Shown here: piece by piece, positions 29,294 to 29,406 of the stretch | Layout of the letters: every line of letters starts with the position of its first letter | Numbering within the stretch: the first letter of the stretch is position 1 | Origin: Thermoplasmata archaeon | GTDB lineage: Archaea > Thermoplasmatota > UBA186 > UBA287 | DNA: 34,052 bases | Direction of reading: 5' to 3' | Assembly (NCBI GenBank): GCA_011620765.1 | Contig: WOYO01000075.1 | Location: 9,793 to 43,844 of the forward strand | Program-made: the position numbers and the translations under genes | Notes under the pieces: generated by a model | Told to the model about the DNA's origin: nothing | The model's database searches: none | The model's input: only the letters and a program-made list of their open reading frames with translations

Positions 29294-29406
29294 GCTCCCG
29301 TGGTGTAGTCCGGTCAATCATCTCGGCCTCTCGAGCCGAAGACTCGGGTTCAAAATGAAGGGTTGTGCCCTTTCAAAACCCCTGCATGAAAATCCCGACG
29401 GGAGCA
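29294..29406 (+). tRNA. tRNA-Glu (anticodon CTC) with a 38-nt intron (29355-29392) in the T-loop between positions 59 and 60
   Basis: Acceptor GCTCCCG/CGGGAGC; anticodon arm TCGGC-CTCTCGA-GCCGA; T-stem TCGGG/CCCGA; removing 29355-29392 restores T-loop TTCAAAT. Bulge-helix-bulge: TTCA/TGAA 4-bp helix, 3-nt bulges AAA and AAT. Confidence 0.93.

Follow-up and report, generated by a model that had tools for sequence, protein, structure and literature searches.

A multi-copy family of predicted bulge-helix-bulge introns in the T-loop of tRNA genes of a Thermoplasmata archaeon

Can a tRNA gene whose T-loop is broken by an insert still yield a working tRNA, and by what route might such an insert have arrived there? 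The question is raised by a tRNA-Glu(CTC) gene in a stretch of 34,052 nucleotides (the window) from contig WOYO01000075.1 of a Thermoplasmata archaeon (assembly GCA_011620765.1). Sequence comparison suggests that the gene is functional and that its insert belongs to a multi-copy family of bulge-helix-bulge (BHB) introns that is specific to the lineage and always lies at position 59/60. A probability of roughly 0.85 is given to this reading.

Positions 29294-29406 hold a complete tRNA-Glu(CTC) apart from 38 extra T-loop bases, 29355-29392, at 59/60. An original prediction made from the letters alone had already placed the gene, its helices, its bulges and the intron, and all of these coordinates proved correct on re-reading. 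The parts of the gene are as follows.

29294-29354, plus strand: 5' exon, from the acceptor stem through T-loop position 59, ending in TTCAAA (sequence reading, and ARAGORN on the spliced form)
29294-29300 with 29399-29405, plus strand: acceptor stem, 7/7 base pairs, with the discriminator A29406
29330-29332, plus strand: anticodon CTC (ARAGORN on the spliced sequence), with the anticodon stem at 29323-29327 and 29335-29339
29344-29348 with 29394-29398, plus strand: T-stem, TCGGG with CCCGA
29349-29352, plus strand: 5' strand of the central 4-bp BHB helix, TTCA (T-loop 54-57)
29353-29355, plus strand: 5' bulge AAA, with the predicted cut after 29354 (standard BHB rule)
29355-29392, plus strand: 38-nt intron at 59/60, family 1 (ATGAAGGG...TGCATGAAAA)
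29356-29362, plus strand: 5' strand of the intron-side helix, TG.AGGG
29380-29386, plus strand: 3' strand of the intron-side helix, CCCT.CA
29387-29390, plus strand: 3' strand of the central helix, TGAA, complementary to the T-loop TTCA
29391-29393, plus strand: 3' bulge AAT, with the predicted cut after 29392
29393-29406, plus strand: 3' exon, comprising T60, the 3' strands of the T-stem and acceptor stem, and the discriminator A (sequence reading)

The junctions of this copy form a strict 3-4-3 BHB, which places the insert among the BHB introns. When 29355-29392 are removed, 75 nt with the loop TTCAAAT are left, and ARAGORN calls them tRNA-Glu(CTC), as the original prediction had anticipated. 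The predicted spliced junction is GGTTCAAA|TCCCGA. It had also been foreseen that a standard finder may miss the gene. Indeed, the unspliced form received no call from ARAGORN and no match at the Rfam gathering threshold; a permissive Rfam search recovered the 5' part alone (E about 0.1). When the intron was shuffled 200,000 times, a central helix of 4 bp together with an intron helix of 2 bp or more, both in register, arose in 320 cases (0.16%), so that the BHB register would rarely form by chance. A self-splicing group I or II intron was considered and rejected, as the insert has just 38 nt and a tRNA-Pro is the sole Rfam gathering-score match in the window.

The host genome (G000) measures 1.29 Mb in 101 contigs and is 87% complete; its congener (G001), the second species of the genus, is 63% complete. 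Their tRNA genes were collected by Rfam searches at a loose E-value and by a query of the window intron with its flanks, which found near copies at several other sites of the host genome. At least 15 host tRNA genes are broken at exactly 59/60, against 25 with ordinary T-loops, four of which carry anticodon-loop introns. The T-loop of Glu(CTC), once thought to be a rare case, thus shares its interruption with those of Asp(GTC), Ala(TGC), Ala(CGC), Ala(GGC), Arg(CCT), Arg(CCG), Arg(TCG), Arg(TCT), Gly(GCC), Gly(TCC), Leu(CAA), Lys(CTT), Ser(CGA) and Ser(GGA). Both sides are readable in 11 of the 15; only the 5' exons are certain for Ala(GGC), Ser(GGA) and Arg(TCT), where the contig ends at the junction, and for Arg(TCG), where a run of N is met. 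Nor was an intronless Glu(CTC) found in the host genome at its 87% completeness. In the congener, nine copies are readable: Glu(TTC), Arg(GCG), Arg(CCG), Arg(TCT), Arg(TCG), Gly(CCC), Ser(TGA), Ser(GGA) and Ser(CGA).

All 20 fully readable introns of the two species splice on paper to tRNAs that ARAGORN calls with the right anticodon, and each product has 7/7 acceptor and 5/5 T-stem pairs. The central helix is 4/4 in 19 of them (GU allowed), where TTCA of the T-loop can pair with the four intron bases that end two nucleotides short of the 3' junction; in 13 it is accompanied by two or more intron-helix pairs in register. These counts bear on the idea that the insertion is a disabling one and tRNA-Glu(CTC) a pseudogene. 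The intron does break a conserved loop; however, the stems of both exons are perfect, and the same interruption is seen in at least 15 isoacceptors, all three Ala anticodons included, so that the cell would lack essential tRNAs. A pseudogene is therefore very improbable. An artefact of assembly or binning deserves even less credit: three contigs do stop inside introns of this kind, and a run of N is present in one copy, but the window copy lies inside a 43.8-kb contig, the pattern repeats in the separate congener genome and in many unrelated genomes, and contig ends at repeats are to be expected.

The ends of host contigs C16, C70 and C89 (L129, L131 and L132) fall exactly at T-loop intron junctions. 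The introns are thus a probable cause of fragmented assemblies and of overlooked tRNA genes. As finders can miss these genes, metagenome-assembled genomes may seem to lack tRNAs.

Most of the introns fall in two sequence families, one with the start ATGAAGG or ATGAGGG and the other with ACAGCC and its variants. Between Ala(TGC) and Leu(CAA) the introns share 98% identity, against 65% for the tRNA bodies; between Asp and Arg(CCT) the figures are 94% and 68%. Near-identical introns are thus present in non-homologous isoacceptors of one genome. The intron ends are also uniform per genome, AA|T in the host and mostly GA|T in the congener, as is expected if the copies have been homogenised.

Does a site of this kind also exist without its intron? 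The orthologous tRNA-Asp of the congener lacks the intron; it has the same neighbour gene (77% identity), and its promoter and 5' exon are 94% identical to those of the host. The T-loops differ by exactly a 36-nt insert, plus G57 in place of A57. To judge from this alignment, the congener gene is a natural empty site. The Arg(CCG) orthologues of the two species contain different introns, and in the orthologous Ser(CGA) introns the first intron-helix pair is C-G in one and T-A in the other. Position 57 is A in 24 of 24 intron-bearing T-loops, and the intronless ones have 21 A and 15 G (P 1e-4, for genes that are not independent). This bias could reflect co-conversion, a pairing need or a choice of target. 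Taken together, the intron data are consistent with introns being copied from one tRNA gene to another in the same genome, although the direction at a single locus is not fixed.

It may be asked whether the T-loop introns are instead ancient, inherited vertically and now being lost rather than spreading. Introns at 59/60 do occur in many archaeal groups, and other families of the phylum (G006, G012 and G021) also have T-loop introns in tRNA-Glu. Against this, introns of different isoacceptors are up to 98% identical while their tRNAs reach about 65%, the Arg(CCG) orthologues hold unlike introns, and the nearest other family in the class (G002) gave no T-loop intron in the Rfam-based tRNA search. 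Vertical descent with loss is hence considered improbable.

Small palindromes, for example GATTTCGCAAAGCGAAATC, recur in the long T-loop introns and beside tRNA genes (in the Ser(CGA) intron, L124, and 3' of Leu(CAA), L119). They are possibly a repetitive extragenic palindromic (REP) or miniature inverted-repeat transposable element (MITE)-like repeat.

Which enzymes would remove these introns? A single EndA gene was found in the host (C7:54286-54984), with two tRNA_int_endo domains in one 372-codon open frame, and by its predicted architecture the enzyme is of the two-domain alpha'2 type. Among solved structures it is closest to 5x89 (EndA-like protein, tRNA-splicing endonuclease) and 1r0v. 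The latter we take to be the Archaeoglobus-type enzyme, and a Tyr, a His and a Lys of the host protein align with what are presumably the catalytic residues of A. fulgidus. A gene for the RtcB ligase is also present (C10:2830-4104, E 3e-175). Reviews link non-canonical tRNA introns to broad-specificity splicing endonucleases, describe alpha'2 EndA as restricted to canonical-position introns and ascribe canonical-position introns only to the alpha4/alpha2 euryarchaea (PMC4090602, PMC4033280). A broad-specificity enzyme had been expected at this locus too, but neither an (alpha-beta)2 nor an epsilon2 EndA was found in the 87% complete genome, where alpha'2 is the sole form detected. Across the genomes checked, EndA takes single-domain, two-domain or two-gene forms, and other genomes with T-loop introns have a single one-domain or a two-domain EndA gene. 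With at least 15 T-loop introns in an alpha'2 lineage and varied EndA elsewhere, it is the motif, rather than the position or the enzyme type, that seems limiting.

Some observations weigh against a spliced and spreading BHB family. The computed minimum free energy (MFE) fold of the precursor is not the BHB cloverleaf: the cloverleaf without D-arm has -32.7 kcal/mol, the constrained fold -36.9 and the free MFE fold -39.7. The BHB pairings foreseen for 29294-29406 can be drawn, but the minimum-energy fold is a different one, and the case rests on the spliced form and on the relatives. Further, not all of the 20 introns are strict BHB, as seven have no 2-bp intron helix in register. With full-length pre-tRNA, an alpha'2 enzyme reportedly excises looser motifs at 37/38 (PMC6379350), and by analogy the looser motif of these seven at 59/60 need not be fatal. 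With genomes 87% and 63% complete, a second EndA subunit could be missing; the more complete genomes of the phylum with T-loop introns, G004 (98%) and G115 (97%), have two-domain EndA only. Finally, one genome pair at tRNA-Asp cannot alone separate gain from loss.

If the introns are spliced in the cell, as their anatomy suggests, the alpha'2 EndA of the host would cut the pre-tRNA in both 3-nt bulges, and RtcB would join the exons to TTCAAA|T with release of the intron. The 3' end of the intron (TGAA) would pair with the T-loop TTCA (54-57), which is nearly invariant among tRNAs. A copied intron may therefore bring a ready central helix to almost any tRNA, whereas an intron at 37/38 would have to fit each individual anticodon loop. 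Gain is favoured here over loss, and the introns are presumably mobile between genes. They might spread by DNA-level copying (gene conversion or recombination via the shared T-arm) or by reverse splicing.

Selection, and not mobility, might also set the number of introns if introns are retained for disrupting the integrase attachment sites of the tRNA 3' half, an idea of Randau and Soll (cited in PMC3293823). tRNA genes and their ends are the usual attachment sites (PMC3293823), and one fixed position in many tRNAs would fit. The near-identical intron sequences are left unexplained by such selection, which is compatible with copying between tRNA genes; as the account of intron number it is rather unlikely. 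Going further than copying within one genome, it is conceivable, though we lean slightly against it, that a minimal non-coding mobile intron uses the T-loop as a universal landing pad. Such an intron, of about 35-50 nt and with a 3' tetranucleotide matching the invariant T-loop, would place copies of itself in one tRNA after another, through either reverse splicing or gene conversion; several archaeal lineages would have acquired this habit independently, and with a strict alpha'2 enzyme. The two congeners, with an empty site and copies of different ages, make the movement of archaeal tRNA introns directly testable.

How widely is the pattern distributed? The host was predicted to be of euryarchaeal type, and its phylum is indeed Thermoplasmatota. 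A short-intron pattern matches 48 of 394 Thermoplasmatota genomes, chance matches included; matches such as L267-L272 and L290-L296 were dropped, as no tRNA resulted after splicing. In another family of the phylum (f4), several genomes have 2-5 copies of T-loop introns in Ser, Cys, His, Ala, Glu, Arg and Leu genes. These have a consensus of their own (TTGCAACTTG..., TGCATGACTTGCC...), unrelated to the introns of the host genus, and have apparently expanded independently at this position.

Across GTDB, at least 117 loci show a related pattern. Among the matches listed, the T-stem is perfect in 80 of 85 archaeal loci, with a full acceptor stem as well in 75, and 76 splice to a tRNA. Bacterial loci among them have a 5/5 T-stem in 3 of 32 cases, none with a full acceptor stem also, and 3 of 32 splice to a tRNA; they were judged to be chance matches (T-stem, Fisher P 5e-19). 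The pattern presupposes a TGAA end and is uninformative on introns with other ends, and the absence of a genome from the matches listed carries no meaning. The archaeal loci listed span DPANN, Asgard and further groups, and include ones from Micrarchaeota, Woesearchaeota, Aenigmarchaeota, Nanohaloarchaeota, Asgard, Bathyarchaeota and Thermoplasmatota. The view that T-loop introns are mainly of Thermoproteales type thus gives way to 59/60 introns found across many archaeal groups. The pattern also appears in records titled Thaumarchaeota and Thermoprotei (L231 and L246).

As for whether relatives share the intron, the congener has nine readable T-loop introns, and the Glu(CTC) T-loop introns of other families are unrelated in sequence. 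The latter are found in three families, at L069 (G006), L064 (G012) and L065 (G021), and the intron of G006 has a long perfect intron helix. In related families, the tRNA-Glu genes L072, L073, L074, L075 and L066 carry long introns in the anticodon loop, not in the T-loop.

Introns at 59/60 and intron transposition in archaea were already known (PMC4090602, PMC4033280). The transposed introns of Thermoproteales, compared by description, resemble the present ones in that similar introns lie in different tRNAs of one genome, at non-canonical positions and with a BHB. Here, however, the host belongs to Thermoplasmatota and has an alpha'2 EndA, and the introns occupy one fixed position, 59/60, rather than many. 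Known archaeal 59/60 introns share both the position and the BHB motif, but multi-copy, lineage-specific families are seen here in a group said to be canonical-only (PMC4090602). In 2024, intron-rich tRNA sets were reported from the Asgard Atabeyarchaeia and Freyarchaeia (PMC11291895). These too have unexpectedly many non-canonical introns, some of which need extra structural inspection; unlike here, more than half of their tRNA genes carry more than one intron. In the other Asgard genomes checked, EndA is mostly encoded by two single-domain genes. A further parallel is Korarchaeum cryptofilum, with an alpha2 endonuclease and non-canonical introns, which was named the sole archaeon with this combination (PMC4033280). 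The open-licence literature yielded no single-site T-loop intron family in at least one third of tRNA genes with alpha'2 as the only detected EndA.

In the window, tRNA-Glu(CTC) is flanked on one side by a minus-strand gene (28285-29196) and on the other by a gene with a likely start at 29487, which we take to be glyceraldehyde-3-phosphate dehydrogenase-like from its sequence. A longer open reading frame (ORF), 29244-30488, is a mechanical extension that runs through the tRNA gene. Farther away, window positions 22183-27556 hold an Rnf-type electron transport operon, named by eye, and within this region the ORF 23442-24419 contains a low-complexity Ala/Ser/Thr repeat stretch.
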